NCBI GenBank assembly: GCA_002118135.1 | Contig: BDIU01000205.1 | Location: 1 to 64,000 of the forward strand | Direction: 5' to 3' | Origin: Trebouxia sp. TZW2008 | Taxonomy: Eukaryota; Chlorophyta; Trebouxiophyceae; Trebouxiales; Trebouxiaceae | Length of the DNA: 64,000 nucleotides | Shown: positions 1,934 to 63,080 of the stretch, piece after piece | Numbering within the stretch: the stretch's first letter is position 1 | Layout of the letters: the number at the start of each line of letters is the position of its first letter | Notes under the pieces: generated by a model | What the model was told of the DNA's origin: nothing | Database searches by the model: none | What the model saw: the letters and a program-made list of their open reading frames with translations, nothing else | Program-made: the position numbers and the translations under genes

Positions 1934-4900
1934 ATGCTTAGCTTCTGTCGGACTCACCCGGGCGTCGTCCTGTGCCCCTCTGTTCGATCCCTCGCAGTCT
2001 GCAAGCCGGAAATCAGAGCACGGTCGATACCCAGAAGTAAGTTTCGCTCATGTCGACCCGCCCGTGACTGCTTAAGGGCAAGATCCTGGTGCAAGGCATG
2101 CCAACGCCGTGCCGTGGACGAGGAAACTGATATAGCATCTGGCGTCGGCATTTGCCACCCGTTTGATGTTTCTGAGCGTCTTCTTCTGGTTGCCAGGGGT
2201 ACAAGCGCAGGCAGCACGCTTTGCGGCACAAGCACCAACTTCGGGCACAGGAGGCAATGGCATAGCCAGCACACAGAACGACTCAAGTGTGAAACAAGCC
2301 AATCCTCCTTCGCCAGGTGTTTCAGTTCAAGAGACTCCACCTCTTCTGCCCCCTCCTGCCATCTTTGCAAAGGTATGCGCTGCCGGCCATCTCTCACCAT
2401 CACTTGGGTTAACTTCCCCACTACTGCACAACATCATGCAATCTCAACCAGAAAAGCCGTAGGCCTCTTTTCACCATCTCTTGCTTTTGCTTTGCCGGCA
2501 CAGCATGACATTGTGCAGCTACAGGGAGCAAAGCTGCAAGCTATGAGGCAACATACAGTGAGTCATCCACCACATTGCCTTTGCTCGTTCACCTGCGTTC
2601 AGCAAACATGTTCAAAGCTGCAGCGGCGTATGCAGCCAATGCCACTTTTGGTTCAGAATGCTTTGCATTGCTTGTTTTTAATTGCAACTGAAAGGTCAAT
2701 GCAGAGATGCGTCTGAGCAAACGAAGTTTGGTCAACATTTGACCTAAAAGCTGTAGAGTTGGGCATAGACAAGGCAAATCTGCCAATTTTGAAATGCTTT
2801 GCCTTGTAGCTGATGGGCGGCATCTTCATTGCCTTCAGAGGTTCTGTGCAATTCATGCAAAAGCGAGCTGCAGAAATGCGTCTGACCTGGTTGAGCTGTT
2901 GTACAGGCTGCATACAGCGCAGAGCTGGGCACAGCTAAGGCAAATCTGCCAGTTCCGAAATGTTTTGCCTTGTTGCTGATGGGCGGCATCTGCATCGCCT
3001 TGGAGGGGCTCTGCACTTAATGCAAAAGCGAGCTGCAGAAATGCATCTGACCTGGTTGAGCTGTTGCACAGGCTGTAGAATTGGGCACAGCAAAGGCAAA
3101 CCTGCCAATCATGAAATGCTTTGCTCTGTCGCTGATGGGCGGCATCTTCATTGCATTTGGAGGCGCTCTGCACTTCAGTGTTGGACCCAGCTGTAGAGAA
3201 CTGGCAGCAAGCAATCCTGGATTGGTCAAGATCCTGACAGGCAAGTCACAATTTTGACACACGTATGTGCGGATTTACTTGCATTTGCATTTCAAAGTCA
3301 GCTGTAGAGAGCTGGCAGCAAGCAACCCTGGACTGGTCAAGTAACTGACAGGCAAGTCACAATTTTGACGCATTTAAGGATTTGCTCATACTTATGCATT
3401 AGTAAGTCAGCTGTAGAGAGCTGGCTGCAAGTGTCCCTGGACTAGTCCAGATCCTAACAGGCAAGTTTGCTAGTGGTGTCTTTAACAGACAAATCAGACT
3501 ATGTGCGCGGTATCTGCATTGCCTTTGGGAAGGCTCTTCACTAGTGTGTGGATCAGCTGTAGAGAGCTGGCTGCAGGTAACCCTGGACTGGTCAAAGTTC
3601 TGACATGCAACTCTGTTGAGAAAGCAAGGCTGCAAAGCAGAAGCCATACACAGCTTTGTCTTGTGTGTGAGACCGGTCATGTTCTGCAGGGCTTTTGAGA
3701 CATGGTTTTTCCGTTGCTTTGTGTTAAGTTAGTTAATGTTTTCATGTGCAGGGCTGGTAGGGCTGCCATTTGGACTGCTGCTGGTGCTGCTCTGCAAGGC
3801 CAAATTAGACGTAGCTTCAATGTGACATGCTTTTTTGTGTCTAGCTGTTCATCACAAGTGAGACCTGCACAACTGTGCAGGGCTGGTAGGGCTGCCATTT
3901 GGACTGCTGCTGGTTCTAGTCTGTGGAGCAGAGCTGTTCTCTGGCAACACAGCTCTTGTTGGCGCTGCGGTGAGCTAACAATGTCTGCTATCTTTGCTTC
4001 ATGTCACCCTTGATAACGACCATGTTTAAGCAAGGTTACCCTGCTGAGTCTAGTGTTTGCCTCTGGACTCAGAAGTCGTCACCCTTTTTGCAACATGCAT
4101 GCAAGGACAATGCAAGCAGCCATTGAGAATGGCCAGTCTGGAACGCTTATCCAGCAGAAGTGTATGCCATGCTGTGCAGCGATCCAACATGAAATGCACA
4201 AGAGAGCAGGCAGTGCATAGTTATGGCATCAGCTCCATTGGCACCCAGCCAGCATTCTAGGCTGCACTGGTCTGTTCACGACAACATATTCATGACCGGG
4301 TTGTGGCAAAACACAACTACTACTGTCACAGTTGTATTGTACTGTGCGGCCGTTCAATGACAAATGACAAATGCACTGTTAGCAGTTGGCGCACAACTGG
4401 GGCATCGCTTAACTGGTTCCCCATGCACCTAGCAAAGCTGCAAAGCAAATTGAGTAAACATGTTGAGGTTTCATGCAGCGCCTTGGTCAGTGCATTGGCT
4501 TGTACAGTACAGCAGTGTCTGACAAGGGTTTATGATGTGCCTGACAAGGGTTCATGCTGTGCATGACAAGGGTTCATGCTGTGCATGACAAGGATTTGTG
4601 CTGTGCATGACAAGAGTTTGTGCTGTGCAGTGCTTCAATGGCAAATGCCCAACAGAGCAGTTGGTGCATAATTGGGGAATCAGCTGCAATGGCAGTCAGT
4701 CATAATCATGAGTGACATCAATCTAGTCATGCTAACACATGCAAAGTATTGTTTGACAATGCTGTCTGAGGCTGCGCCTAGTTGCAGAGGCTCTGGCCAT
4801 GATGCCTATCGGCGTAGACTTTTCTTTCTTTACTTCTTCAGTGTCCTTCTGTGCAGCGGTTCAATGGCAAATGCACAACAGAGCAGCTGGTGCGCAACTG

Positions 4901-6614
4901 GGGCATCATTTGTTTGATTGCCACTGTTGCTTGTAGCATGGCAACAAGGGGTATGCGACTGTATCTTGTGCTATGCAGCGCTTGAACGGCAAATGCACAA
5001 CAGAGCAATTAGTGCGTAACTGGGGAATCAGCTACATTGGCAACCAGATTGGCATACTCGGTGTGATTGCCTTGTTGAATGGGGCTGGCAATCAAGTTAC
5101 ACAACAGCACTCCAAGTGAAGATGTCAATTTATTATTATGCTGTGCAGCGATTTACTGGCAAATGCACAACAGAGCAGCTGGTGAGCATGTGGGGCATCA
5201 GCTACATTGTTAACCAGACAGTAATTTGGACTGCATTGCTCTTTACACAATGGCACATAAACTGCAGGTTTGAATGCAAAAGGTGTGATGCTGTGCAGCG
5301 TTTCAATGGCAAGTGCACAACAGAGCAGCTAGTGCGCAACTGGGGCATCAGCTACATCGGCAACCAAATTGGCATACTCGGTGTGATTGCCTTGTTAGAT
5401 GGGGCTGGCATTTTCTCATACAGCACTCCTGGAATCTTGTCCACAGCTATGACCAAAGTTAGCCTCACATTTCAGCAGGTAATGGTTATCCTGAGCTTGT
5501 TGCTTTTACCCAGACCACATTGCTTTCAGTTCATGATGCCCCAGTTGGCATCTTCTCATACAGCACATACAGCTGGACTTTGCAGCTATCAGCAAAGTTT
5601 CAGTCACGTTTCAGCCTGACATTCCAAAAGATATCTCTCAGCTTGCTGCATGAATTCAGTTTTTTTCCCAGATTGCTTTGGGATACAAATGCTCTCCAGG
5701 TGTTGCCTGAATGAGGACATCTGCAACGTTTGCACTTTCTGTTGTTGCTGCTTTGGTGTTGATGCAGCATATATGTGCCCCATTTTTGTGTCATGACTTA
5801 CGATGCATTTCATGACACAAGCGTGTCACTGCAGGTGCTGTATCTAGGTTGGTTGTGGGTTTCTCACTTGCTGCAACAGAGCAGATATCCGTCAACACAG
5901 CAGCTATCTGAGACTTGACAGCAACATGACAGTCAGCATGGTTGCAAAGCAGACTGACTGCAAATGAGCAGCTCCAAAGAACAGCAAGCAAGACTGCTTT
6001 GGCTGCAGACATGGCCGCTATAATGTGCTTGATGTTCATTCAAATCTTTGTGGATAAGCACACAAACCAATTTGCCAAGATTGCCAAAACCCCCCTGAAG
6101 AGTGCCGGCAGACACAGGCACTGAAACATGTTTGTTACTCTGCAGGCATTCTTCAGCGGCATTTTGGCCCACTGCTTTGTGCGGCTAGCCACATGGATGG
6201 CTTCCGGCTCCAACAGTTTAGTCAGCAAGCTAGTTGCAGTCTACCTACCCATCTCGTCCTTCATTGAGTTCTTGATGGTATGTGCAGGCTTTCTTCAGCG
6301 GCATTTTGGCCAACTGGTTTGTGTGCCTAGCTACTTGGATGGCTTCTGGCTCCAACAGCTTAGTCAGCAAGCTAGTTGCAGTCTACCTACCCATCTCGTC
6401 CTTCATTGTCATCGGATTAGAACACGGTATCGCCAACATGTTTATCATTCCATTGGCAATCAGCCTTGGAGCTGACATCACTGTGGGGACTTATCTCATG
6501 AACAATTTGTTGCCAGTCACTTTGGGTAACATGATTGGAGGCGCTCTTGGTGTTGCTGGTTTCTATTCTTTTGTATATGGCAATGCAGGCCAAAAGCAGC
6601 CGCAGCAGGCATGA
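1934..6614 (+). CDS. NAR1: NAR1-type formate/nitrite transporter, 6 exons
   Basis: Member of the FNT (FocA/NirC) channel family. Green-algal NAR1 carries nitrite across the plastid envelope to nitrite reductase. Exons by splice signals and phase: 1934-2036, 2197-2372, 3072-3240, 3881-3969, 5299-5478, 6288-6614; total 347 aa. The first ~90 residues (start MLSFCRTHPGVV) precede the FNT domain and look like a plastid-targeting leader. Seen FNT signatures: PPAIFAKAVELGTAKANLP at the domain start, LPFGLLLVLVCGAELFSGN, the NWGISYIGNQIG block, and GLEHGIANM, whose His285 matches the central pore histidine of the family. Exon 3 ends in a GC donor (position 3241). Exons 3, 4, 5 and 6 all have extra partial copies in the adjoining introns; only the chosen copies keep an open frame and compatible phases. 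Substrate (nitrite versus formate or bicarbonate) is inferred from family and neighbours. The plastid location is inferred. Confidence 0.88.
2750..3608 (+). repeat. Echo copies around NAR1 exon 3
   Basis: Two decayed copies of the 5' part of exon 3 lie upstream at about 2750-2850 and 2921-3010. They read KAVELGIDKANLPIL and HTAELGTAKANLPVP but carry stops or frame breaks. Three copies of the 3' end with its GC donor lie downstream at about 3301-3355, 3410-3465 and 3553-3608, reading SCRELAASNPGLVK and close variants. All are direct repeats. The intact exon (3072-3240) sits between the two sets. Confidence 0.85.
3745..3835 (+). repeat. Echo copy of NAR1 exon 4
   Basis: The acceptor and the first ~60 bases of exon 4 occur twice: here (AGLVGLPFGLLLVLLCKAKL, then divergence) and at the functional exon 3881-3969. 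The upstream copy loses the conserved GAEL motif and has no good donor, so it is read as a decayed duplicate. Confidence 0.75.
4160..5298 (+). repeat. Array of six decayed copies of NAR1 exon 5 start
   Basis: Sequences matching the acceptor and the first 60-120 bases of exon 5 begin near 4171, 4339, 4624, 4851, 4974 and 5142, before the functional exon at 5299. Most keep the acceptor TGTGCAG. Protein remnants read QRFNGKCTTEQLV with substitutions, then run into stops or unrelated intron sequence. Spacing is irregular (about 120-285 bp), which suggests repeated independent duplications rather than one amplification. A copy of the exon 3' part (GIFSYST) also lies downstream near 5545-5640. Confidence 0.82.
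6146..6287 (+). repeat. Near-identical upstream twin of NAR1 exon 6 start
   Basis: This 142-bp unit repeats the first ~130 bases of exon 6 with few differences. It has its own good acceptor (cag ending 6145). It joins the functional exon through the ten bases GTATGTGCAG, a donor-like and an acceptor sequence fused together. Use of the upstream acceptor with read-through shifts the frame, so the downstream acceptor (exon from 6288) is required for the full transporter. Confidence 0.85.
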
Positions 6615-7824: not shown

Positions 7825-10071
7825 CTAGGCTGCTGGAGGGCGGCGCACCCCATCCTGTGAAGTGTCAAGGGTACTAGGGCTGAGCCAACTGCCAGGCCCT
7901 ACCACAGGCATTGCCATTGACATCTGCATCTGTGCATGCTGCATGGCATTGCTAAACATGTCATCAGGTGTATTGCCCTGTGACTTGGTCCTTCCCTTCA
8001 CTGACAGCTTACGCAAGTTACGCTGTAGAGACGCATTCTTTGCTGATCCTGATCCTGAGGAGTTGTTGGCGCCTTCAGACTTGACTGACATGCCTTGACT
8101 GACGCCTCCAGAATCGCCCTGATGCTGACTGCTGCTGGACTGGGTGTCGATGACGGGTGAGGCGAAGTGTGGGAAGGCGTCGTCTAGGAGGTCGTGGGAT
8201 GGGAAGGGTTCGATGCTTAGGGCACTACCCATGGGCTCCTGTACATGCGTGTGCTGCTGCATCATCATGTCGCCATGTTGTAGCCCCTGTGCTTGGAGGG
8301 CTTGTGCGGGCACGCCCTGAGCTTGCATGCTCTGCAGATTCTGAGGCTGAATTCCTTGCTGCATCATTCCAGCAGCCATGCCTTGTGCCATTGCGGCCTG
8401 CTGCTGCGGGAGACCTAAGCTGTTCTGTGCTGTCATGCCCATGTACTGCATCATGCCTGCCTGAGGCCCGTTGAAATGACCCACAGGGACACCTGCATGT
8501 GAGCAAATGCGTCAGCATGTGCATTGCATTTCGCAGGTGTCTAGCAGTAAGTCGCTGAAAGATGCTGTTGCGTCGTGCCTGCCTGAGGGCCGTCAAAGTC
8601 AGTGATAGGGATACCTGCAGTTGTATTTACCCAGCATATGCAATGCACTGTCAAGAGGCCAAATGGTGAGCAACAATATACTGCATCAGCCTGCCTGAGG
8701 CCCATTGAAGTGACCGACAGGAACACCTGCACTTGAGCCAGTGCAGCAGAACATCTGTTAGGCTTCTGGAGTGTCTTGAGAGACTGAGAGCCATTGGAGG
8801 GACCATTAGGAATACACACACTGCAGCCAATGCCTAAGCTCATGCGTTCAGTTGACAGAGGCTATATGGTGCGCAACAAGACGCTGCTACATCAGGAGAG
8901 GTTTCGAAGCACAGCCGCATGCTTGTGGCACTTGGTGCTGATATGCTGCAGCAGTGTACATGTGCCATCAAGTAGCTGTTCACTGTGCTGCAACTGCTGC
9001 ATTGTTGCAACACAATGTAAAACAGTATAATGGCACATACATTGGCTGGAGCACAAAAGGATGATGCCAAAGACCACCTGCATTCCTTGCAACCTGGACC
9101 AGCAAAAACAGCACAAACACCTTGCAATGTCTTGCCCTGTGCAATGCAGAGCACAGTGCATTAGCTACAAGGACGGACTAGACCCACCTGGTGCTACACT
9201 AAAGCCAGGCTGCATCTGTTGCTGTGGCTGCTGCTGTGAGAGTTGTGGCAGCAGTGAGGGACCAGCTCCGCCAGCCTGCTGCTGGAAGTATGCTTGCTGC
9301 AGCATCAAATCTGCCTTCTGCTTCTCGACGGTGCCTACTCGCTCCTGCAAGTCGCAAACAGAGTGACCGCCTGAAGCGCGTACTCATGCATCTCAGATCG
9401 GAAGGGTTACGAAGCTGCTGCCGTGCTGCTCACCTCAAGAAACTTGTTCAGCTGCTTCAGCTGGCCATTCTCAGCTCTGAGCTGCGTCACGACGCGGATG
9501 GCATCCGCAACGATGCTGGTCTTGTCGGTTTTGACGTCTTTGCGAGGGTCCAGAGCCTTTGAGAGCTCCGCGAAACTGCAGCAGAAGGAGCAGAGTTGGC
9601 TCTCGTTCATGCCGTACGACTGCTACAGAGCGCTTTAGCTGACTGACGATAAGATTATGCTGTTCAAGCACAGCGCGCTGTACAGCACCTGTCGTTGAGC
9701 CTCTCGCGCCTGGCACGCTCCCGGCAGGCTTTGTTCCTGGCTGTGTCCAGCTTGGCTTCCTTCTCATCTGAGCCTTTGCGTTTGAGACCAGGCTCGATGT
9801 CAGCTGCTCCGATGCTGGTGCCGGCTTGCTCTTCAGAGCCTAATTGTGCTAAGAACATCTCTAAAGACTCCTTTTCAGCTAGTTCGAGCTTTCTCTTTCT
9901 GTTCATTTCTGCTGCTTGAAATTGCTGAACTGTGACAGGGGGTGGTTCTCTAGTGGTTTGAGGTAATCTATTTTCAGAGGCTGGCACTTCAAAGCTCAAC
10001 AAGTCATCGTACAGACCAGTGTACTGTATGGCAGCAGCAGACAGGGGCTCATTTGTCCAAGCTGTGTCCAT
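7825..10071 (-). CDS. bHLH transcription factor, ILR3/IVc-like, 4 exons
   Basis: Exons on the minus strand: 10071-9689, 9575-9434, 9344-9188, 8492-7825; 449 aa. Residues 113-127 hold the basic region (NKACRERARRERLND). The helix-loop-helix follows (FAELSKALDP, KTDKTSIVADAIRVV) and runs into a leucine/glutamine-rich coiled coil. This order and the KTDK..I..DAIRV motif resemble plant subgroup IVc bHLH factors (ILR3, bHLH34/104/115), which regulate iron homeostasis in land plants. The C-terminal ~220 residues are low-complexity (Q, M, S, G) and probably regulatory. At the exon 1/2 junction the predicted residue is Ser where relatives have Arg/Lys. I chose the ATG at 10071 because the longer frame upstream has no ATG. 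The 5' flank carries six CACGTG boxes, the core site bound by many bHLH proteins, so self-regulation is possible. The target pathway in this alga is unknown. Confidence 0.8.
8585..8740 (-). repeat. Two echo copies of bHLH exon 4 start
   Basis: Acceptor plus the first codons of exon 4 (VPVGHFNGPQAG) recur at about 8690-8740 (same peptide, then stop) and 8585-8625 (IPITDFDGPQAG, altered). Both lie in the intron upstream of the functional exon that starts at 8492 on the minus strand. Confidence 0.72.
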
Positions 10072-11056: not shown

Positions 11057-14000
11057 TTAAGCATCAACCATTTCTTCCTGCGCCTCATTTGGATTGAGCA
11101 TTCCAGGAATGTTTGCAAGCCTTTGACGTTCAGCCTGCAACCGGCACACAGATCATGCTTTGTCTTGATCGACGCAGCGACGTCTTCATGCAGTACGTGC
11201 AAGCACTGCGCATTGACACAATCCAAGCACTTGCTCTGAAAAGGGGCCAGGCATGCACAGCAGGCCGGAGACTTGGCGTTGAACAGTCACTAATCCTTGT
11301 GAGGTCATTCAATATCAAGACATCCTCAATGCAAGGACAAAGCAATGAGTGACCAATCACTGCATTTTGTTTGCAGTGGTGACTTTCAGAGCAAGGACAA
11401 CCTAGTACAAGGACAACTCTTGGTGACCAATGCAGGCGTTATAAGGAGTAAACATTGTACCTGTCGCGCTGCGGCTGCTTCGTCAGCAAACAAGTCAGCG
11501 TTGTCTTGACTTGAGAAGGACTTGGTCTGAACTAGAAAGTCCCTCAGGTGGTCTTTGAAGGCTGCATGGTCTTGCAGCTCAAACATGCCCGCAACGCATG
11601 CCTGCACAGCATTGCTAATGTGAGCTCTGAAGTTTGCAAAGTAGAGGTGCGCAGAAGCTTGCTGACCTGCTGAAAATATGCAAGTCAGAGAATGCAAGAA
11701 GGCTACTGCAACGCACTTTGGGCCTGTTCTGCTTGTGTATCTTATTGCAGCCAATCTGTTGATTTGAGAAAAATGGGAATATCGCCAGGCTGCTGATCCA
11801 TTCCAAGTCTGGTCTGCTTTGCAACCAATACGCACAGACATACGAGGCGTAACAGCGCAAGACAGTTTGACCTCATGGTACAGTTAGATAGAGAAAGAAG
11901 CGTTTGGTTGTGCAACATGCAGACACAGCATATGCACAAATGAAGCAAAGGCTGACTGTCAGCAGCTGCAGACAGACAGGGCCACATCTGCAGCAATATC
12001 AGGTGACACAGGGGATTGCGGTTCAGATGCAGCTTTTGTGTGCACATGCTGCTGATGAGCTATCACAGGTGAAAGCAAATACAGAAAGGTTTGGGTGAGG
12101 GCAGTAGCAGGAATGCCGTTGTATCAACGGATGAGGCACAAACTGATGCACAAAGACGGCATTGGTGAGGTACACTTCATGTCTTTGAGCTGAGGCAGGA
12201 AAAGAGTCTACAAATCCTTAGCAGGGCAAGTCACAATGACATCCTTACCTCAAGTTGCGCTGGTCGCAGGTTGGGGAAGCTTCTGCTCAACAGGTCACGC
12301 ACAAACTGATGCACGAAGACGGCATTGTTAGGGTATGCTTTGTCCCCCTGCGCTGCTTCATCCCACAGAGGAGCTTTGATCACCCCGCTGTTGACTATGC
12401 TGAACAGGTGATGCAGTATCCTGGCATGCAGCTTGAAGCCTGGCTTGTGAAAGCTGTCTGCAGATTACACACATAGCTGCTGTACTTGACATACTGCTTT
12501 CCAATGTCTGGAACTGGAGTGATGGTTGCACAAGGCAGAAGAGTGAACAGACGATCCCAAAGCAACATGTCTGGTTGCCTACAAGCTTCAGACGCAGCTG
12601 CTGCTGTTTGAGGCATGTCAGCTAATACACATGCTTGCTATGATGCAGGGCAACGTCAGGCACTGTGCAATATGGACAGGGTAGACAAGCAGCGTCGAGG
12701 AGTTGCTAACCTGTCATGACTGCAAAGATCTCCTGCATGAGCGTCAAGTAGTAGGTCTTGTGAAACTGCGTGGCAAAGTCAGAGTGCTGGAAGGACTGCA
12801 GCATCTCTAGTAGCAAGTTCAACCCTGCACACGCATCAGACACCAGTTAGGTGATATGTCATAGTCACCCAAGGAAGCATCGCTCCGTACAAGCAAACAG
12901 CTTGACTGCACTATCAAAGAAGCCACTGCTATGAATAGTCCAGTCGTATTAGCAAAGGTTTTTGCATCAACAGCACCAGTGCAACAGTCTGATTGCTGCA
13001 TACCTACAGAGCTGAAGGTGTGGCATGCATTCAGCAGAGATGACAAAAGCATAAATTTTGTTGACACACGTGAGAAACCCAAGGACACCAATGGCACATA
13101 CTGCTTCAGCCAGCCCCCTTGGCTAAAGCAAGTAAATTTGGCAATGGCATCAAGAGATGATGGTGCAGCATCTGGACCTTGTTGCAGCATTGCATGAAAG
13201 GGCAAGTCAGGCGGTGGCTTCATTTTGTGCAGGGATACAGAAATCCTGTCGGCTTAAGCTTGTCCCTGAGTAGCGTGCCTTGGGAGGCTGTCATACCTGT
13301 CTCTGCAATATTCCTCTCGGTGTGGCGGAAGGCCCACACTGTGGAGTTGATAACTAGCTTGAGCTGCTCTGGAGACATGGTGAACAATGTGTTGAAGCAG
13401 TGGTTGGTGATGGCTCGCAACAAGCTGAAGAACTGCAACCGGTGCTCAGGATAGACCTGCAGTTAAGAGGTGAAGTGAACATTGGAAAGGAGCACTTGAT
13501 CCACCCAGTTCTCAAGTGCTAACATAAGCATTCAGATGGTGGGTCAAGTACATGTACTGGACACTGTACATGAACTGGCAAGTCATGCATCTTTATGCGC
13601 TTGATGCAATCGAGGTGGCAAGGCTTTGTACTTGTGACAGACTGCAGACTGTCAACGTTGCAGCACAGCACAGCACAGCACAGCACAGCACAGCACAGCA
13701 CAGCACAGCACAGCACAGCACAGCACAGCACAGCACAGCCAAGAATGACATTCATAGTAGTATTGCTGCTGACAGAACACTCTGAACTAGCTATACAGTA
13801 GCACTATCACTGCAAGCTGTGTCTTACAAAGAGCAGCAATGCCTACACATCTGTGCAGCTTGAGCTGCCCAACATACAAAGTCTTTGCAAAAAAGCTCAC
13901 CTCGAAGTCTTTGGTGATCATGTCAAGCGTGACTTGGAAGACTGCTTCAAATATCTTGGGCACCTCTGACAGCATGCGGTCCTTCAGCTTGTTGATGATG

Positions 14001-17000
14001 GCTGCAAATAGGCTGAGAACCTCCGCATCCCTGCAAGTGTGAAAGAGACAAGATTGAAATGCTTCTGCCAGTCAGCTATGGGCTCTTCAGCAACAATGAG
14101 ACGAGAAAGACTGCTTCAAAGATCTTTGCACTTCAGACAGCGCTTGGTTCTGCATCTTCTTCATGATGGTTGCAAACAGGCTGAGCACCTCTGCATCCCT
14201 GCAACCAGGAATGCGCAATCCTGGAGATTTGAGCAATCTTTGAGATGATTTTGCTGCTCAGGAAAAGGGGAAGCGCAGATGGCAAAAGATTGCCTTTCAG
14301 TCAATCAGGTAATTGCTGCAAACAGGCTGAGAACCTCCGCATTCCTGCAACATGGAAAAGCAGAACTTTTGATACTTTCGCGGGTTAGCAACAGGAGAAA
14401 GAATGGATGACAGACAGCATACGATCCTTCAGCTTTATAATGACGGCTGCAAACAGGCTAAGCACCTCTGCATCCCTGCAACCATCGATGAAGCAAGATT
14501 TTGAATGTGTCTTGGCTGATTCCTGCCGCACCCATCAGCATTATTGAACATGCAAGTCTTGATCGGCAGAATGAAACAATGCATGCACAGCCTCTGATGT
14601 GCAACTGCTAATGCTAGTTTCTAGTAGAGAGGGGCACATTATCAGACTTATGTCGAGCTGGACAGTCATTGTATACTTGTTGGAAAAGGCACAACTGGGA
14701 TGTGCAGGTCAGCACAGCTTGCTTTTGCACAGAATCACAGCAGTCGATCAAACGATCCATTTCACCGCTGCTCAATCAATCAACCAATGAGCACATGCCC
14801 AACCACTCCTGCGCGGCAGTCGACCAGCCCACCAATTCAGGCAGCAATAGGCTTCATCAGCGATTCAGGCACCTGGGACATTGCGTGTGTAGTCTCTAGA
14901 ATAGGCTCCATCATGAGGGGCACCATATGGGTGGCCATCAGGTTCAGTCAATCAAACTCATAAACCTGTCAAAATCATCCAAATGAGTACCTCGGCAACT
15001 TTGCATGCACTCAGCCAGTTGACACACTACTCCGAGCATCAATCAGATCGACCATACCTGGCGTCTGGGACGTTGCTTGTGTAGTCTCTGACGATAGGCT
15101 CCATTATAAGGGGCACCATGTGTGTGGCCACCAATTCAATAATCAATCATACAACGTACAAGTGCAACCAAGCAACCTACCAATCACCCATGTACGCACT
15201 CAATCCACAAATCAAATCATCAATCAGGGCACACCAAACACTTACTCGTACCTTGCATCTGGGACATTGCGTGTGTAGTCTCTGAGAATGGGCTCCATCA
15301 TGAGGGGCACCATTTGAGTGGTCACCAGGTTCAGGTCCTCACTCTTGTCTACGAAGGTCTCAATCAGCTTCAAGGTCACCTGGAACAGCAGCAAGGGTGT
15401 CAGGCAGCATCCCATAAGTCTGAGGCATATCAGTAAGTATTGTGTGTGTGGCCATGAGTTTGCATGCGTCATCAGATGACCAGCACTGCAACCATGTCAA
15501 ACGCGCACTCGCATCAAGCAAATACTTGCAGATAAGCAGAGCAGCTGCTCATTAATTTCAAGTGAGAGCCTGAGTGCATGCTTATCGATTGGTTGATCAA
15601 TCCGCGCAGTCAATCCAAGCAATCAACCAACGGGTGACACAACCAACCAAGCAGTCAGTCAGTCAAGCAACCAGTCAGTCAGTCACACGTAGTGATCAGC
15701 CATCACCTGTCACTTTTGCCCATCAGCCACAAGTGCAAGAAAGCCATTGTTGGCCATCGCCATTGCAATGAGCTTGATGTCTCAAGAGCACAGTCATGCA
15801 GTCAGTACAGGACACCAGTATGAGCAGGGTGAGGCAGCTACCTTCTTAACGCTGCGCATCGTCTTGACTTGGGCAGTCTTGGAAGCATGGGGCCCGCCAG
15901 TCTGGATGGACTGGGATATCAGCTCTGAATACATCCTGTGCAGCAGAAGAGTGTCATGAGATGTCATGCAAAGGGTCCTCAGCACCAGCTACTTGACATT
16001 GTAGGAGTTGTACATGATATCTGTGAAAGAATGCAGAAATGAACGGCCTGAATCATGTCCTGCAGAGAGCTTGATGCACAGCCACCATGCAATGGCCAAA
16101 AGCAAAGCATTTCTGGCTGCTATGAGCTGTGCTACTTTGACGAGAGGTGGTGTCAGCAACTGCTTGAGCAACTGCTTGACCACTGATCAACCAACACATA
16201 CAGGATAGACTGTATATCTCCATTTACAGGCATACCAATAAATCACACCTTCTGGCACAGGCGCCAGATGTAGGTGGCCTTGATCCTGTTTTACCGCGCA
16301 AACAACAGAGCTTCATGCTTTGCACACACAGCATAAGCGCTGACCTGTAGACATTGAGGGAGTCTTGGTAGATATGGCTCATCTGAGTGACGAATGGCTG
16401 ACCCAGAGAGGAGCAGACAGACACATTGGTCTGCAGAATGTTCTGGATGTTCTTCACCAGATCAGTCTGCCGTAGAATGTCTGCTTGTGCCTTTGCCTGC
16501 GTGATGATTTGTTCCCAGGTTGAGTTGGGAGGGCCCATCAGTCTCTCCTGCAGCACAGCACAGCTCAATCAACTGCTGCACAGCACAGAGTGATTGGCTG
16601 TTGCACAGCATGACTGCCGCGGAATGTCTGCTTGTATTCTTGCCTGGATGATGATTTGCTCCCAGGTGGAGTTGGGAGAGCCCGCCAGTCTCTCCTGCAG
16701 CACAGCATAGCATGATCAACTGCTGCACAGCACAGAGTGATCAGCTGTTGCACAGCATGACTGCCGCGGCATTTCAGCTTGTGTTTCTGCCTGGATGATG
16801 ATTTGCTCCCAGGTGGAGTTGGGAGGGCCCATCAGTCCCCTGCAGCACAGCACAGCACAGCACAGCACAGCACAGCATGATAAACTGCTGCACAGCACAG
16901 AGTGTTTGGCTGTTGCACAGCACAACTGCCGCGGAATGTCTGCTTATGTTCTTGCCAGGATGACGGTTTGGTGCCAGCCCATCAGTCTCTCCTACAGCAC

Positions 17001-42382: not shown

Positions 42383-44166
42383 AAGATCAGTGTACACATG
42401 TTACATTCTGCCTGCATGTTGCCCTCAAGTGTTTGGCACCTTTATTTTTTGCAACTAGATTTAGCGATATTCAAGTTTTGGTGATGGCTTGATGACTTGA
42501 TTCGGTGTACCTCAGCCACGGCAAATAGAGTTTCGGTAAATGGCTTTGCTTTTTGGGGTTGCATACCTGTTCAACTTCTGCATTGTAAGCTGAAACTCTG
42601 AAAGTGGCTCAGTGCTTGAGCCTAAGTGTAACACTAGAAACAGTTGCAGGTCAATGTTGATGTGTGGTGTGGATACACAACCTTGGTTCACAAGAGCAGC
42701 ATCATTTGCCAGTGCTGTGCATTTGATCATGTGCATTGGGGCAAATGTGACGCTGTAGCAGGGCGATGCTGCCTATGCATTGTTGCTTTGACAGTGCATA
42801 TACATACTTGGTCTCAGACTGCCGACTCATAGCGTGCTGGCAGCATTACAGGGTGATACCTTTGCCGTTGCACTCAAAGCATGCTGGCAGCATCGCAAAG
42901 TGACAACATTGCAGTTGGACTCAATGTTGACGTGCTTCAGCTGCAAGAAGTATACATGGCAGGCGCTTATGTGCACACGTGCTCCATTGCATGAAATATG
43001 CTGGCAGATGGTCGTGCAGGAAGGCCAGGTCATGCAGCAAGGCCAAATGCAGGAGGCGCTGTGTTACATTGATACACACTGTTGATAAATCAAATCAGAA
43101 ATGAGAGGTCAAATCTGCTCAGTGGCTGTAGCACAAGCAGATAACCAAGCAGCACCAAGCCTACTTGCCAACAATCAAATCCTTTCTTAGGAAACAGGGC
43201 CACAATCAGCTAGCGTACAGCAAAAGCAATCAAACTTATAGAGCATAAGATTTGCATCTCAACGTCTACATGCAATGCAGACAGTACTCAACAATGTCTG
43301 ACATCTCCAGACTTCAAGCAAACCTAGACCTGAGCAAACCTAGACCTGAGCAAAACATGTAATGCACCACCAGAAGGGAGCTGGAGAGCTGTGTAGACAT
43401 CTAACCGCATATCAAATTTATTTTCTTCCACGACCCAAAGCGAGCCAAAGAGCGAACACAGGTTGCCTTGCTCTCTGTCTGCAGCTTCAGTCTCCTTCTG
43501 CAGATGTTGTGTATGATGTTGAAGACCAGCAAAGCATCTGTGTTCCAAATCTTGCTGATCGTGTAACTCTGACAGCTGGACCAAGTTCTGATCAGTTCTG
43601 ACTAAGCAGCTGCTGTGGCAAGCTCCTTCTCAGCACTGCAGCCCATCACAACGCATATAAACCTCAACACATGTAGAAGTTGCATTTGAGGATGCAAGAA
43701 TCTGCCAACCTCTTTCAGTGCAGCCACACCTCTCAGTGCCACACCTTTCAGTGCAGCCATATGCTTTCACTTCAGCCACACCTTTCAGTGCAACCATGCC
43801 TTGCTTGCACCAAACGCTACAAGGAAGCACTGCTGGCACTGCACCACGAGTGGCAGCTGCTGCTTGAGCTGCTAATTCTGTTGTTTCAGCTACAGATGCC
43901 ATGGGCAATCTAGGCAATCAATGCAATCAAGACCAACGGTTGACTCACAGAGCAGGTGCATGCAACCACTATTACAGCAGAACAAGATGAACACGTAGCA
44001 ACACTTACCTTTGTTTGAGCTTGGCACCACGTTCCTCTAGCAACAAGTCTCTAAGCTTAGGCAGCGGAATACAAAGGAAGAAGATGAACAGGCAAAAGGC
44101 AACAGAATGCACACCACAACAGAAGAAGAAGAAGAATGATAAGTCAGTGACACAGAAGGCAACGAC
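42383..44166. other. Region between coiled-coil gene and nitrite reductase 3' end
   Basis: Tail-to-tail intergenic sequence. Near 44000-44065 it contains a copy of the nitrite reductase 3' coding end with donor (LPKLRDLLLEERGAKLKQ). An open frame at about 43917-43630 on the minus strand could be an additional 3' exon. Nothing else is recognised. Confidence 0.5.
44000..44066 (-). repeat. Echo copy of nitrite reductase exon 11 end
   Basis: Repeats KLRDLLLEERGAKLKQ about 165 bp beyond the functional copy and is followed by a consensus donor (GTAAGT). In the functional copy the same position reads GGGTGAGT, which contains both the TGA stop and a donor match. Confidence 0.8.
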
Positions 44167-47100: not shown

Positions 47101-50100
47101 ATCAGCATCACGCAACCAACAGGCACACACGCCCCCACCCAAAACAGTCCCTCCTGTCTCTGTGGGTGGATGCCCAACACATCACGCCTCTTCCACACGT
47201 CATCATACTGCATGAACCAACCGAGCAGTCAGCATGCACTCATCAGCATGCTGTCAGTTTCACAGATCCCACATGGCCTGTTCTTGAATCGAAGCAAATG
47301 ACGTAGGCCCCCAGAATAGCCCCACCGTTTTCTGTGGGTGGATGCACAACACATCACGCCTCTTCCACACACCATCATACTGCATCGAGAAGATCAGCAG
47401 TGGGCGTGCTGTTGCCTCAACAAGGCAACTGCATTACGCAGAACAGCTGCAACACATTGTGCATCTTCAATTCATCGCCGTACTGCAGGAATCACTAGAG
47501 TTGGCAAACTGCTGACACAAGACACCCATGTGTTTGACCCCTGCTATACTGCATGATACAGAGTGACTCCTCCTGTGCCTGTGCATGAATGCCCAGCACA
47601 TCATGCCTGAATTTGGAATCCCATGAAGCCCGCATTGTACTGTACTGCAATGCTATTGTTTACTGCTTTCCTGACAGTATTGCAGTTTCAGCAAGACAAG
47701 CAGAAACACCTTGCTGTCACGTGCTTGCCAGGCTTGAGATCGTAGCCAATGTAACTGCTGACAGCGATGCTCATGAAACTTGCACTTTCTATGAGACAGG
47801 GAGCTTACTTTGACATGCTTGCCAGGCTTGAGGTCATATCCAATGTACTTGCTGACAGTCTGTCTGAACTTCTCAGCTCCCATGTCTTCAACCAGCCACA
47901 TCAGTCTAGTCTTCTGCCTGTCTGCCACACGCTGCCCATGATCCCTGCAATGACGAAACACAGTTCGCTCATGCAGTTTAGTCCAACTTGGTAACGCTTG
48001 AAGTCTGGGATGATCTTTCTTTTATGGGCAGACTCAATCAACTCTGGCCTATGGAAACTGGCCTGACACTCCAAAAAAGGTAACAGATAGATTATCAGCT
48101 CCCTTGTCTTGCCGCTCCCATGTCTTGTCTTGTCGCCACACGCTGCTCATGATCCCTGCAGGAGGGGACTGAAGTTGTACACAAGACGCAACACCAAGTT
48201 GATGAGAACAACAAGTCTTTTGCTTTGCAAAGTCCGCATACAGCATGGTTGTTCAAGTAGCTTGGGATCTGTGATGCTGAATGCATCTCACAACAGCTGC
48301 AAATGGCATCAACGGTACCAAGGCATTGCTGATTGTGCTTGTTTAGGGCATGAAAGCAATACTGCCAAACGTGAGAGCAGAACAGAGCCTGGAGACCTCT
48401 AGGACGCCTTTGGAATAGAGCACCACTCTATCCCACTCGCTCGAATTTACACATTGTGACATGTACAAAGTAGAACAGCACCTGAAGACTTCTAGGATGG
48501 CTTTGCAGTAGGGTGCAACCTCTTCAATGTCCAGCCAGGTGTCTCCTGGAATGGAGGTGGCATTCCTCTTGATACTGAAGTAGCCTCCCAATTCCACATT
48601 AAATCCAACCTGCAACAGCAAAGTACATAAGTGAGAATGCCTGTACAACCAATCAACCAGATTTGGTTCCACATGTCAGCCAGGTGGCTCCTGGAATGGA
48701 GGTGGCATTCCTCTTGATACTGAAGTAGCCTCCTAGCTCAGCGTTGAAGCCAACCTGGACCGATGAGGGGAGACACATCCGGATTTGGCAATCAGAACAG
48801 CATGTGTGACATCAGCAGAACCAATGTCTTCAATCTGGCAGCAGCTGACTGCAGGCATCACTGCAGGCTATGATCAGGCAGGTCACAAGATGCACCTGAC
48901 TTCGATGTTTTCAATCTGGCAGCAACTGACTGCAGGCGTCATTGCAGGCTATGATCGGGTGGGTCACAAGCTGTGCATGAGTTGGAAAAGAGAGATGATG
49001 GTCATGACACTGCATACAGTACTACCGATGATGCCTTGAATGTCAGTCACAGCAGTGCTGCTAGCGAAGTCCAGTCTTTGCCGAGTGGCACTGAACAGAC
49101 CCTTTCACTAGGTAGTGCAAACAGAGCAGAGTCATTCACACCTTGCCAGTTTCAGGGTCCTTGGCAGCGTACAAGCCCACATCATTGATATGCGTGTGTG
49201 CGAAGTCATCCCTAGTAGTAGCCAGCCCAATGTTGATTTTCCTGGGCAGGTTGACTAGCTCTGGGTTGCCTTTGCCATGGTTGGTGATCATGTTGTCAAT
49301 TGCTTTGCAGAGCGGCCTTGAGTCCACAAACTCGTGAGGGTCGATGCCGGCAATTGGACTGCCTGTCATGTTGCGCACATTGTCCATGCCTGCAACAAAG
49401 CAGAACTTGGGTCAGTACCTGTTGCTTTGCCACCCATTTGTGTGAGTCCACGCCAGCAATGTGACTTTCTGTCATGCTGCATGCATTGTCTACATTGCCT
49501 ACATGAGGGCAGACTGGCACCTGTTTGAATGGAGGAATATCAGCATGCAGCCTGCCTGAAAATGTTGTTGCTGCTGCTGCTGCTTAGTGCAGCGACACAG
49601 AACAGGTGCACAGCTAGCAACACACCAGCCTACGGCTTGTCCATCAAGATTCAAAAAACGGTCAAAAGACAAATCAGCCAAAGGTCAAAGGAGCTAAACG
49701 CCAGAGAAGGACTAGAACCCTGCACCTATCTGCACAGATGGTAAGCCAATGTCTCACAGCCCTGAGCAAATGGGCCCTGCATCTTCAAGGGGAATGCCCC
49801 GCAGCTGGCACAAGCCACAAGCCAAAAGCGAAAATAGTAAAAAGCCCAAAGAAGGGATAGAACCACATACCTGTCTGCACAGATGATAGGCCTACTTCCT
49901 GCAGCCCTGAGCAGATTGCCCCTGCGTCTTCAAGAGGAATGCCCCTGAGCTGAATGTTGGCTCTGGTTGTGATGTCCAGACAGCCCTTTTCCCCATACTT
50001 CCGGACAGAATCACCCAGAAATCTCATCTGCTTTGCGTTCAACTCTCCATTGGGCACCTATGGATCACATAGAACAAGCCTCAGGCACACACCCTGTGTG

Positions 50101-52594
50101 CCATTGACAACTTTCAGTGCTAGATGTGAAGTCTAATTGTGATGTCCAGACAGCCATTTTTGCACCATACTGCCTGACGCAACTGCTCAGGAACTGCAAC
50201 TGTTCTGCTTTTGGCTCTCTGTTAGGCACCTGCAAACCCGCAAACACACCCATTTTGTGGTCTTGATCACACGCTTGCCGTGGAACGTGCCTTGCTTTGG
50301 AAAGTTCTTTGGTCATGCAGCAAACAGAAGGATGGCAACAGAACTGACGCCAACTTTATGCCACAATAGAAATTGCCGCATAAGCATTTTTTGCTTTGCA
50401 CAGCATGACAAGCACCCTGTAGCAAAGCTTGTGAGCGCAGCATTAAAGAATGTTGCAAGCCGTTCTTGGCAAGAAGAACCTGTAGTGGCTAGTTCTGCTG
50501 TTGTCATGAGCACAGCAACGCCAGCCTCTACAGGTTCTTCCTCCCAAAACAACTCACAATTGCATTCAATGCAGCAGCAGCTTAATCTGTAAAAGTTTCC
50601 AGCAGCCGCGGCAGCTGCAGAAGACAGATACAGTAGACTCTTGTTGTAAGGACACTCAATGTAAGGACAATCTCAATGTAAGGACAGTGCCATTGGTACC
50701 CAATCACTGGATTCCGGCTGCAGTCATCGCTCTGAGTCCCTAAGGAGAACTTGACGTAAAGACAACTTTCTTTGGTGCCCAGAGCAGTCGTCACAACAAG
50801 ACTTTACTTTGCTGTACCTTGAGCCTCATCATGAAGAAGCCGGGAGTCTTCTTCTTCCTGTGGAACAGGCCGGACCACTTGAGCCTCAGATCCATGTCGT
50901 CCAAATCCAAATCCTGCCATGTGCTCTTGCCTTCCCTATAAACATCACACATTGCTGTTGCGGGCTATATCTTTGTATACAAAATTGGCATGCCTTGGTC
51001 ATGGTGCCAGATGCACATCCAGACTTTGCCATGTGCTCTTGCCCTCCCTGTAGTGATGATACATTTAATCTTTACCTGATGTTGCAAGCAGCCTTCATAT
51101 GCAACTGCTATCTCATCCAAATCCAGATCATCACATGTGATTTTACTCTCCGTGAGACACACATGACAAACGTGCCATTTTCTTGCAAACATGATGACCA
51201 CGCTGCAGCTGCTGGTGCACATCTAGATCCAATAACAACAGCAGCAATTGCTGTGCAAACTTCTGACAGAAATGCGCTCAGTCCCCGTACATAATGAGAT
51301 AGTGATAAATAAAAATGATTACACTTGCAGCACATGTGCTAGGTGTGTGTGTCCCAAGTCCTATCCCGCCAGCTTGTTTTGAGACTCACGATAAGGACAG
51401 TTGATGTTAAACATGCAAAAATCAGACAAAGCAATGTCGTTCGATATCTTCCTAGGTCGACCCATGGGTTTGCCCCATTCATAATGAGTGCCAAGCTCAT
51501 GCACCTCCTGCCATATTTTGAAGTCTATGCAAGACTGTGCACATTGATACAGTGAACATCAAGCCCTGTGAGAGCAATCAGCCTAGCATGCTGTACCTGA
51601 CTGGAGCGGCCAATGTGATGATTTCAGCAGAAACAAGTCCAAATTGCTATGGCTTATGAATACAGTCCATACAAATTGCTGTAACCCAATTGCTGTACCT
51701 GATGAGAGCACCAAGCTCATGCACCTCCTGCCACATCTTGTGACCGCCCTTCTTGTTCTTCATCTTCTCAATCTTGTTCGCCTTCTTGTCCAGAGCGCGC
51801 AGCTGCACGACAAGACATAGAAGTCAATGTGTGCTGTGCGGAGTTTACAGTGATGAAGCAGAGATGCATTGACGCACACTACTGCTGCAACAAGTTTGCT
51901 GGCTTGAAGCGCGCCAAGGCGCATCAACACTGTGACTGTGCAGATCTGCTTGCCAGGGGTTGATCACAATTGATCACGAGTGAACAGAGCAGACTTTCAG
52001 TAAACAACTAGTGGCCTGTCGATCAAAGAAAATCCCCAAAATGAATTGGCAAGGCAGGCTTTGTTGTCATGGCGCACAATATGGCTGAAACAGAGCTGCG
52101 CTCTGTTGCATTGCATGGCATGAAGTGATCAATTGGCAGCAGTCAGCAACGCTGCAGATACAGACTGCATGTGCATTGCAATGGAAGCAGCTGGACGCGT
52201 TTGGGCACATCAAAAAGCCCTCTAGATCATTGACGAAGTCAGCAATGCTTGTAGCAGCTGTCACAAAGTGCCTTACCCTTGCTTGATTGGTGAGGAACTT
52301 CAAGCCACTGGTCTCAAAGTCGAGGCCTTGGTCATCAAGAATTGCTTGCACTTCTGGGCTGATTGCTTCTGACTGTGCTGGGGGAAACACATCTTTCACC
52401 TGGAACGGATAGTCACTGCCGTTGCTGACTGCAGCGCCGTTGCCGTTGGCTGAAACACCGTTGCCTGCGACCGCAGCTGTGACTGTGACCCGCTGAGTTG
52501 GCTGACGACTCCTAAGGGCAGCCGTGCTGCGAGCGCGGTTGGCTGAAACTTGAGGCAATACGCTGCTGGTCGCGGGCAGACTAAACGTTTGCAT
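44167..52594 (-). CDS. NII1: Ferredoxin-nitrite reductase, 11 exons
   Basis: Plastid enzyme reducing nitrite to ammonium with six electrons from ferredoxin, using siroheme and a 4Fe-4S cluster. Minus-strand exons: 52594-52277, 51802-51699, 50935-50818, 50057-49871, 49389-49142, 48609-48482, 47944-47809, 46873-46734, 46027-45923, 45088-44902, 44382-44167; 628 aa. The first ~60 residues (MQTFSLPATSS, S/A/R-rich) resemble a transit peptide. Seen: LKWSGLFHRKKKTPGFFMMR, the TTRANIQLRGIPLED block, MDNVRNMTGSPIAGIDPHE, VELGGYFSIKRNA, LGIHPQRQEGLFWVG, MRLTVEQDVIFPNV, and the cofactor cysteines in SCTGAQFC (Cys510, Cys516) and GCPNSC (Cys551, Cys555). The stop overlaps a good donor, so a further 3' exon is possible. 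Most exons have decayed edge copies in the introns. Divergent from NAR2; co-regulation by NIT2 is likely from family knowledge. Confidence 0.93.
44455..44775 (-). repeat. Two echo copies of nitrite reductase exon 11 start
   Basis: Minus-strand copies of VADIGLMGGPAKMNGKAVEG: one at about 44455-44570 (VVDIGLMGSPAKMNGKAVES) and a shorter damaged one near 44700-44770. Both lie upstream of the functional exon at 44382. Confidence 0.85.
46090..46235 (-). repeat. Echo copies of nitrite reductase exon 9 start
   Basis: The acceptor region and start of exon 9 (functional start at 46027) are repeated upstream as ~110-bp units near 46090-46135 and 46195-46235, with the shared CTGCAGCGTGCAGAAC intron sequence in between. 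Confidence 0.6.
46480..46690 (-). repeat. Echo copies of nitrite reductase exon 8 end
   Basis: Damaged copies of the end of exon 8 with its AAAAGTGAG-like donor occur near 46495-46570 and 46620-46685, downstream of the functional end at 46734. The match is short and judged by eye. Confidence 0.5.
46797..47400 (-). repeat. ~175-bp tandem array carrying nitrite reductase exon 8 start
   Basis: Three near-identical direct units (about 46797-46970, 46970-47148, 47148-47330) plus a fourth partial copy near 47330-47390. Each carries the CTGCAG acceptor or a variant and the exon 8 segment RRDVLGIHPQRQEGLFWVG on the minus strand. Only the first unit (functional exon 46873-46734) continues into the rest of the exon. 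High identity shows recent expansion. Confidence 0.9.
47685..48175 (-). repeat. Echo copies around nitrite reductase exon 7
   Basis: A copy of the exon end (IGYDLKPGKH-like) lies downstream at about 47690-47750. A copy of the exon start with acceptor (DHEQRVATRQD) lies upstream at about 48095-48165. The functional exon is 47944-47809. Confidence 0.75.
48385..48765 (-). repeat. Echo copies around nitrite reductase exon 6
   Basis: A near-identical copy of the exon start (GFNAELGGYFSIKRNATSIP) lies upstream at about 48680-48760. A damaged copy of the end (KGVLEVSR) lies downstream at about 48390-48440. The functional exon is 48609-48482. Confidence 0.85.
49435..49510 (-). repeat. Echo copy of nitrite reductase exon 5 start
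   Basis: Minus-strand sequence VDNACSMTESHIAGVDSHK resembles the functional start MDNVRNMTGSPIAGIDPHE at 49389, about 115 bp upstream of it. Confidence 0.78.
49735..50235 (-). repeat. Echo copies around nitrite reductase exon 4
   Basis: A copy of the exon end (GIPLEDAG, then a stop) lies downstream at about 49735-49805. A copy of the start (VPNREPKAEQLQFLSSCVRQ) lies upstream at about 50120-50230. The functional exon is 50057-49871. Confidence 0.85.
50631..50808. mobile_element. pogo-like MITE in nitrite reductase intron 3
   Basis: About 178 bp with imperfect inverted ends: CAGTAGACTCTTGTTGTAAG on the left and a complementary ACAACAAGACTTTACT on the right. TA lies beside the left end, and a TA also lies a few bases beyond the right end. 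Internal direct repeats read AATGTAAGGACA. The TIR pattern resembles pogo/Tigger (Tc1-mariner) elements. There is no coding sequence, so it is non-autonomous. Its right end is within ~10 bp of the exon 3 donor. Confidence 0.6.
51005..51145 (-). repeat. Echo copies of nitrite reductase exon 3 start
   Basis: The acceptor region and start of exon 3 (EGKSTWQ) recur at about 51010-51045, and a weaker DLDLDE-like remnant occurs near 51110-51140, upstream of the functional exon at 50935. Confidence 0.7.
51470..51525 (-). repeat. Echo copy of nitrite reductase exon 2 end
   Basis: Sequence coding WQEVHELG is repeated about 200 bp downstream of the functional exon 51802-51699. Confidence 0.75.
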
Positions 52595-58629: not shown

Positions 58630-58630
<1 letters not shown>

Positions 58631-58683
<53 letters not shown>

Positions 58684-58712
58684 CGTTGCTGTTGATGTTG
58701 CCGTTGCTGTTG
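58631..58712. repeat. (GTTGCT)n hexanucleotide repeat
   Basis: About 13 units, interrupted near the 3' end. It gives long Val-Ala or Leu frames that are artefacts. Confidence 0.92.
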
Positions 58713-62424: not shown

Positions 62425-63080
62425 CTACTGCTTTACGTTATCTGGAGGTCCTGACCGTGTCCTCTCGCCTGCCATTGTCATGATGGAGATGTCATCAGGC
62501 AAGGCATTGGATGAGAAGCTGAAGACCTGCACAGCCCAGCAAGCTCTTGAGATGGCCAGGCTGCTGCTTCAGTGTGGAGTAAGGCGGGGTTAGCACAAAT
62601 TTTGGCAGTGACGAATCCCATGCAAGCTGCTTCGGTGTGACACAATTGCATGGGTGAACATACTTGACATTCAGGCCTTGATATGAGCCAATGTACAGCG
62701 GGATTCCGGGAAATTGTGGCAAGACAATTTCTGCCAAAGCGCAGAGTTCACATACCAATATATGGGTATTGAACCTGCACGGTCATCAGAATCAAGTGCA
62801 CACCAGCATTACGGCTAGGCATGTCACTGGGTTGGCCTCCTTTGCACGTATCAGATGATTATGCAATCACACTTGTTGTAAACAACACCAGATTGGCAGT
62901 GATATTTAGTCTTGGCATTGCCACCAGGGTTTTGCTCACCAGCATGGCAGCCTTGGCAATGTCACTAGGTTGAGCTTCCTTTTCAGGTACGGGCTCCATG
63001 TCGTCTCTGTCTATAGTCATGGGTGTATACGTTGCTGGAGGGTAGACAGTCACAACCTTGATGCCCTTGTCCTTGAAGAA
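62425..63080 (-). CDS. Short-chain dehydrogenase/reductase, last exons only
   Basis: Two exons on the minus strand: 63080-62940 and 62526-62425 (stop at 62425-62427), joined in phase. The protein reads KGIKVVTVYPPATYTPM, then PSDIAKAAMLVFSFSSNALP and ends GPPDNVKQ. This matches the C-terminal third of classical SDR enzymes, where the GIxVxxxxPPAxxTPM loop follows the active-site helix and PxDIAxAxL is the last conserved helix. The catalytic YxxxK and Rossmann parts must lie upstream, probably outside the window. A possible small exon (VGLQGLEQRLHN) near 63413-63376 does not fit the phase and is not included. Substrate unknown. A decayed copy of the first exon's end lies at 62795-62860. Confidence 0.6.

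Follow-up and report, generated by a model that had tools for sequence, protein, structure and literature searches.

Tandem duplication is a familiar event in and around genes. Internal tandem duplications of the FLT3-ITD and pol3-ITD type are in frame and lie within coding exons. Tandem duplication of genomic DNA near exon boundaries is a source of introns and leaves exon-like sequence in introns, while tandem exon duplication, as in mutually exclusive exons, yields local tandem copies of exons. Here we analyze copies of exon edges that lie in the introns of a green alga, Trebouxia sp. TZW2008. The window, by which we mean the whole stretch analyzed, is the first 64 kb of contig BDIU01000205.1 in a 68.5 Mb, 527-contig assembly (GCA_002118135.1), and the two genes modelled in it encode exportin-1 (XPO1) and ferredoxin-nitrite reductase (NiR). 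Like internal tandem duplications, as these appear in the accessible part of a preprint (PMC12633238), the copies are short direct duplications within genes; unlike them, the alga's units cross splice junctions and one copy is non-coding. In contrast to intron-creating duplication, no new intron is seen and the copies stay clear of the neighboring exon. The alga also departs from tandem exon duplication in that only parts of exons are copied (a whole exon lies within the copied unit in 0 of 40 pairs in three modelled genes) and the frame is lost. Minisatellites, too, are tandem arrays in introns, and some arrays here reach three to four copies, but the alga's units are longer (100-200 bp) and its copies diverged, the short-period repeats of the window having periods of 5-47 bp.

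Another comparison is offered by errors of Okazaki-fragment maturation. In the accessible part of PMC13334657, duplications of this origin (rad27/FEN1), known from yeast, have units of 148-160 bp, near one nucleosome repeat, and the accessible part of the preprint PMC12633238 describes, for unprocessed 3' flaps, duplications with internal sequence between the two units. The alga shares with the rad27/FEN1 system, so far as these excerpts describe it, short local duplications and a unit near the nucleosome repeat (here a median of 147 bp). It differs in that the small triplications of that system are inverted, whereas the alga's copies are mainly direct, and in that the system is seen in mutants and tumors, whereas the alga's copies are old, decayed debris in a genome that carries a FEN1-like exon. 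Among the titles and abstract openings of the literature matches listed, we found no description of the exon-edge copy pattern.

The window contains 106 local direct pairs (at least 34 bits, copies within 2 kb), against 0 in each of three Markov controls. To place them relative to exons, genes were modelled with a purpose-written spliced protein-to-DNA aligner. With a Trebouxia sp. C0005 protein, XPO1 resolves into 18 exons and 1070 residues, and the joined query is 81% identical to that protein. NiR, modelled with an algal NiR protein, has 12 exons and is aligned over 52339..43891; the start of its exon 1 (~52594) is an open-frame reading outside the aligned span, for which some counts took 52592, two bases short, and the assignment of its 19-base last exon is uncertain. 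XPO1 and NiR were picked in an earlier note on this DNA for their striking look. Prp8, an independent gene on another contig (C218, 26263..7672), was picked without regard to the copy pattern; it was located by its PROCN domain and has 30 exons and 2359 residues, the joined query being 92% identical over 89% of its length to a Trebouxia sp. C0004 protein. None of the three alignments contains a frameshift, and for both joined queries the best protein matches come from Trebouxia. We also drew on a sample of 19 stretches (187.7 kb) chosen by contig number, neither as a random draw nor by pattern; seven of them are on contigs already met in an earlier gene search, and one (L017) overlaps a gene match. 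Its exons were predicted ab initio by a finder trained on XPO1, NiR and Prp8, which in leave-one-gene-out trials hit 51 of 60 exons at least in part and made 55 predictions, 3 of them false.

In the three modelled genes, 36 alignment rows reach a splice site (rows overlap one another within arrays). Acceptor-side copies lie upstream of their exon in 22 of 22 cases and donor-side copies downstream in 14 of 14, and no copy overlaps a neighboring exon (0/36). This is the arrangement that the earlier note had described, and its lists of affected exons in XPO1 (7, 8, 10, 12 and 13) and NiR (2-9 and 11) were reproduced, with XPO1 exon 16 added. At XPO1 exon 16 and NiR exons 2 and 5 only an interior part of the exon is copied, and the alignment stops short of the splice site. 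The note's statement that most exons are affected is too strong: the figures are 15 of 30 in XPO1 and NiR together and 5 of 30 in Prp8 (exons 11, 12, 17, 20 and 28). In the sample, the expected geometry holds in 29 of 35 cases, and the six exceptions could be due to wrong exon calls; a predicted exon is spanned by 7 of the 121 sample pairs.

The geometry has a simple explanation, which we infer from how splicing works. When a unit is doubled across an acceptor, only the downstream copy joins the rest of the exon; when it is doubled across a donor, only the upstream copy does. The joined one is kept by selection. Because this is the sole viable outcome of a junction-crossing tandem duplication, seeing this geometry does not by itself point to a special process. 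An XPG-like gene in one sample stretch (L023, ~900-1970 and 2678-3128), met in a PF00867 search made for another reason, provides a further case: one exon piece is present three times, with starts 155-172 bp apart, two of the three copies contain stop codons, and more local arrays are present.

The copies are of graded age, as had been claimed. Among 196 non-redundant pairs from the window, the Prp8 region and the sample, identities spread from 65% upward, and only 4 pairs are at least 95% identical. Their decay was assessed in 106 edge copies, 36 at homology-modelled and 70 at predicted exons, all on the expected side and none overlapping another exon. In the 46 copies whose homology extends more than 15 bp into the intron, differences by codon position are 0.100, 0.082 and 0.218, a ratio of position 3 to positions 1+2 of 2.40; in the 60 that end sooner they are 0.122, 0.099 and 0.248, a ratio of 2.24. 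Ratios near 2 approximate the expectation if the copy drifts everywhere and the exon only at synonymous sites, and the copies are thus neutral. Moreover, 97 of 104 indels in the 106 copies are not multiples of three; in the three-gene set, 7 of 349 differences create stops and 32 of 35 indels break the frame. AG is retained in 19 of 22 acceptor copies, with a mean score of 4.85 versus 6.8 at real sites, and GT in 7 of 14 donor copies. A hint of coding constraint on the copies, present in a subset of the three-gene set, was gone once all 106 were counted. Copying delimited by splice sites at birth was also considered: there are striking examples, yet the share of copies whose homology stops no more than 15 bp from the splice site (60/106) is just somewhat above the 25-51% simulated under tandem birth and neutral decay, a prediction that varies with the indel rate.

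The units have a preferred size. Copy distance is 120-200 bp in 80 of the 196 pairs and below 60 bp in none, and its distribution is alike for exon-edge and non-exon pairs, with the mode at 120-200 bp in both. Units measure 101-208 bp (median 147) in 48 of the 60 near-adjacent pairs, those whose alignment covers more than 80% of the distance; 25% of the 196 pairs are aligned over more than 85% of the distance. In the window, the periods reported by Tandem Repeats Finder fall into two ranges, 5-47 bp and 86-271 bp, leaving 48-85 bp empty. Very short units are partly missed by the BLAST threshold and low-complexity filter, and the size claim relies on the agreement of the two tools. Local direct pairs cover 19.1% of the window and 14.1% of the sample, where 62 of the 121 non-redundant pairs touch no predicted exon. 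Given these 62 pairs, and units that are of similar length off exons, exons are not the sole target of the process. The pattern is genome-wide and its individual steps are of known kinds, and the earlier proposal of genome-wide short tandem duplication followed by selection for one intact exon is borne out by the sample pairs and the neutral decay of the copies. Pair density per sample stretch (L001-L019) ranges from 1 to 28, more than 20-fold.

Our preferred explanation, to which we assign a probability of about 0.55, is that many local tandem duplications, each about the size of one nucleosome repeat or Okazaki fragment, are followed by neutral decay of the intron copy, with an edge excess that is based on survival. 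Its observed parts are the geometry, the unit length, the neutrality of the copies and the genome-wide occurrence. Duplications, most often of 120-200 bp, would arise in introns, across exon edges and outside predicted genes, presumably through errors in lagging-strand (Okazaki) processing. Where a unit crosses a splice junction, purifying selection would keep the copy attached to the rest of the exon and the intronic one would drift neutrally, hence acceptor-side debris would always lie upstream and donor-side debris always downstream. A pair with a constrained exon partner should be recognizable longer than two drifting intron copies, and similarity should tend to end near the splice site, where constraint ends. 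Any remaining edge excess would come from survival, if deletion by recombination within the decayed exon part harms the exon. The tie to Okazaki fragments is one of size alone: units of ~150 bp point to nucleosome-spaced lagging-strand synthesis.

Several results weigh against this explanation, and the exon-edge excess is among them in so far as births are taken to be uniform. Of the 121 sample pairs, 59 touch a predicted exon, compared with 39.6 (SD 5.4) after circular shifts, a number reached by 0 of 1000 shifts. Sample gene bodies, defined by at least three predicted exons, contain 32 edge pairs, 8 off exons, 8 within an exon and 5 that span a predicted one. If units that are not wholly exonic are placed uniformly and multiplied by a detection advantage of 1.35-2.1 for edge pairs, 19.1-23.2 edge pairs are expected where 32 of 40 are found (z 4.2 to 2.9, values that assume independent pairs, which array members are not). 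The excess holds at 60 bits or more (24 edge pairs versus 4 that are not), and z drops to 1.6-3.0 when only exons scoring at least 10 are used. In window gene bodies, 23 of 28 pairs are at edges versus 11.5-14.5 expected, and the modelled genes have 28 edge pairs among 36 edge-or-intron pairs (with 4 more inside exons), versus 48-53% in a simulation of uniform birth, decay and detection with a local aligner. The Prp8 region has no such excess, whether in gene bodies (7/14 versus 6.9-8.3 by unit-length placement) or against shifted exons (7/16 pairs versus 7.7). An earlier null based on alignment length (28 versus 6.7) was dropped, since decayed alignments shrink to the exon part; unit-length placement and the decay simulation replaced it. 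The breakpoint enrichment at exon edges that the earlier note had put forward as a test is therefore present as a modest excess in the sample and window genes and absent from the Prp8 region; for the sample we regard it as real, though limited in size and uneven.

Further points on the same side concern age, sidedness, orientation and the intron part of the unit. Relative to shifted controls, the excess fails to rise as pairs become more diverged: the counts are 33 versus 22.3 below 80% identity, 33 versus 13.8 at 80-88%, 11 versus 3.9 at 88-95% and 2 versus 0.3 above, a mild argument against survival. As a clock, however, identity is biased, since edge pairs of a given age have diverged less. 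Acceptor-side copies outnumber donor-side copies by 22 to 14 at modelled and 47 to 23 at predicted exons, or 69 to 37 overall with array copies counted singly, a surplus that our model does not predict and that neither survival nor birth bias explains. At the 34-bit threshold, 48 local pairs are inverted versus 314 direct in the window, Prp8 region and sample; at a stricter setting the window has 1 inverted and 91 direct pairs. Several high-identity pairs show no detectable homology in the intron part of the unit. There are 23 edge pairs whose distance is below 220 bp and whose intron part measures 44 bp or more; among these, intron homology was detected at p<=0.05 in 11 and was borderline in 3, below the simulated 76-88%. 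Some pairs have an exon part of 92-94% identity but nothing in common in spacer and flank, and their homology begins at TGCAG; in L019 9063~9308 (91%) it ends at GTRAGT. Either intron parts are rearranged more than simulated or some events copied the exon piece alone. Finally, nothing indicates the loss of a flap endonuclease: the XPG_I domain occurs on four contigs of the genome, and one exon, FEN1-like, matches FEN1 of known structure (E 2.7e-20). With that exon present, FEN1 loss as the cause is unsupported.

What makes the edge excess is the main point of contention between the preferred explanation and its rivals. Detection explains part of it, as edge pairs are found with a frequency of 0.82 and intron pairs of 0.39 at a simulated divergence of 0.2 per lineage; the remainder could come from survival, birth bias or both. 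A tentative form of the survival argument, which we hold to be possible though doubtful, makes exons the anchors of intron growth: duplications that include an edge would become irreversible once the spare copy decays, whereas pure-intron ones could be freely deleted. About equally doubtful is a bias at birth, in which splicing, transcription or exon-positioned nucleosomes place breakpoints in the exon and adjacent intron. This would account for the edge fractions in sample gene bodies (32/40, and 24 versus 4 among the strongest pairs), for an excess at every identity level that is no larger in the most diverged pairs, and for copies that stop at the splice consensus despite 92-94% exon identity; the acceptor-side majority (69 versus 37) has also been counted in its favor. 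It fits poorly with the similar unit length away from exons, with the Prp8 region, and with an exonic breakpoint depth no different from uniform (KS p 0.15; 45 of 60 edges, exons of 90-230 bp), and breakpoints at exon-phased nucleosomes are likewise unsupported. Gene conversion that keeps exon copies young is too weak as a general rule and occasional at best, mismatches being patchy in 9 of 64 edge pairs versus 5 of 68 non-exon pairs (pairs of ~45-260 bp with at least 4 mismatches). Between irreversibility and birth bias we lean toward the former.

A less probable reading is that some events copied an exon piece alone and set it down at a distance with unique sequence between, as the internal-sequence duplications of unprocessed 3' flaps (PMC12633238, a preprint, accessible part) would allow. 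Two pairs without homology outside the exon part look like this: L011 4688~4836 (106 bp, 92%, with a 42 bp spacer lacking homology) and window 3745~3874 (50 bp, 94%, with a perfect stretch of ~41 bp). Many arrays are tandem with intron parts duplicated too, however, and decay with indels yields up to 51% splice-site-limited ends, compared with 57% observed. It is very unlikely that the copies are functional, as alternative or poison exon pieces or decoy splice sites under selection; the AG dinucleotides retained in 19 of 22 acceptor copies, with fair scores, are what this would predict, but the codon-position pattern and frame-breaking indels (97/104) fit neutrality and GT survives in just half of the donor copies (7/14). 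Two further readings are hardly credible. Intron gain by tandem duplication of exonic AGGT segments likewise predicts copies of exon ends inside the flanking introns, but no copy overlaps the neighboring exon (36/36) and the acceptor copies carry their own AG (19/22). Tandem arrays are hard to assemble and the copies are known from the assembly alone, as an assembly artefact would have it, yet 192 of the 196 pairs are less than 95% identical and edge copies bear frame-breaking indels.

We conclude that the extent of the duplication and the exon-edge excess are noteworthy, with no demonstrated system dedicated to exon edges. If the preferred explanation holds genome-wide, the alga would provide a natural genome in which replication errors of nucleosome size, once fixed, can be read as fossils. 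Should exons also act as anchors, a one-way ratchet would pack introns with debris of neighboring exon edges, and the splicing machinery would face rows of almost identical acceptors. There is a practical warning as well: in genomes of this type, gene finders and protein-family searches will call decayed exon copies exons, as with the XPG-like gene in L023.

The features of the window are collected in Table 1. For four further genes named in the earlier note (NAR1, NAT, bHLH and SDR), whose exons here are ab initio predictions or partial rather than full exon models, pairs are present in all four regions, and Pfam supports only NAR1 and the arylamine N-acetyltransferase (NAT); for the latter the PF00797 match is at 38.6 kb, one at 40.5 kb being below the cut-off. 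No Pfam family was found for the tested exons of the bHLH and SDR genes, including the neighboring predicted bHLH exon 9434-9575, or for predicted exons at 32.2 and 34.6 kb.

Table 1. Exon-edge copies and associated genes in the 64 kb window
Feature	Position	Strand	Basis
XPO1 (exportin-1), 18 exons	11060..23136	-	spliced alignment
XPO1 exon 7 (18790-18983) acceptor-side copies, tandem array, unit ~137 bp	19036..19541	-	
XPO1 exon 7 donor-side copy	18629..18730	-	
XPO1 exon 8 (18073-18247) donor-side copy	17927..17997	-	
XPO1 exon 10 (16345-16547) acceptor-side array, unit ~147 bp	16614..17001	-	
XPO1 exon 12 (15252-15379) donor-side copies	14869..15133	-	
XPO1 exon 13 (13901-14030) three acceptor-side copies: 14107-14204, 14312-14350, 14413-14481	14107..14481	-	
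XPO1 exon 16 (12249-12457) interior part, downstream copy	12124..12172	-	
Ferredoxin-nitrite reductase (NiR), 12 exons	43891..52594	-	spliced alignment + open-frame reading of start
NiR exon 2 (51699-51802) interior part, downstream copy	51491..51520	-	
NiR exon 3 (50818-50935) acceptor-side copy	51014..51065	-	
NiR exon 4 (49871-50057) acceptor-side copy	50137..50231	-	
NiR exon 4 donor-side copy	49676..49807	-	
NiR exon 5 (49142-49389) interior part, upstream copy	49440..49490	-	
NiR exon 6 (48482-48609) acceptor-side copy; homology ends at splice site, identity patchy	48673..48757	-	
NiR exon 6 donor-side copy	48376..48418	-	
NiR exon 7 (47809-47944) acceptor-side copy	48092..48160	-	
NiR exon 7 donor-side copy	47710..47764	-	
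NiR exon 8 (46734-46873) acceptor-side array, unit 167 bp	46949..47385	-	
NiR exon 8 donor-side copy	46616..46681	-	
NiR exon 9 (45923-46027) acceptor-side copy	46118..46226	-	
NiR exon 9 donor-side copy	45448..45507	-	
NiR exon 11 (44171-44382) acceptor-side copy	44446..44564	-	
NiR exon 11 donor-side copy	43998..44065	-	
NAR1 (formate/nitrite transporter) region	2755..6408	+	PF01226 at 6276-6611
NAR1 region arrays	2755-3175 (unit 166); 3188-3466 (unit 111)	+	
NAR1 region pairs	3745~3874; 6141~6283 (unit 142)	+	
NAR1 region, copies flanking both sides of predicted exon	5299-5478 (exon)	+	ab initio
Predicted exon 8130-8492 (bHLH of the earlier note, name unconfirmed) acceptor-side copies 8569-8619, 8676-8744	8569..8744	-	
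Arylamine N-acetyltransferase (NAT) region, arrays around predicted exon 38647-38837	37368..39760	-	PF00797
NAT region arrays	37369-37886 (unit 136); 38163-38736 (unit 164); 38887-39472 (unit 240); 39395-39608 (unit 117)	-	
Predicted exon 62940-63080 (SDR of the earlier note, no Pfam match) donor-side copy	62797..62850	-	

Ahead of both XPO1 exon 10 and NiR exon 8 lies an array in which similar acceptors recur together with the sequence upstream of them (window 16467-17001 and 46782-47385), and in both the modelled exon takes the last acceptor; such near-identical series are a natural test of splice-site choice and exon definition. XPO1 exon 3 has an apparent GC donor (21996-21997), and two XPO1 introns contain perfect CAGCA pentamer microsatellites 3 kb apart (13661-13739 and 16843-16877). 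An aminotransferase class I/II gene (PF00155) at 24640-27504 on the plus strand, missing from the earlier list and presumably resembling serine palmitoyltransferase subunit 1, has arrays at 26053-26369 with units of 99 and 86 bp. A 30-bp minisatellite at 54996-55178 has 6.1 copies with 88% matches.

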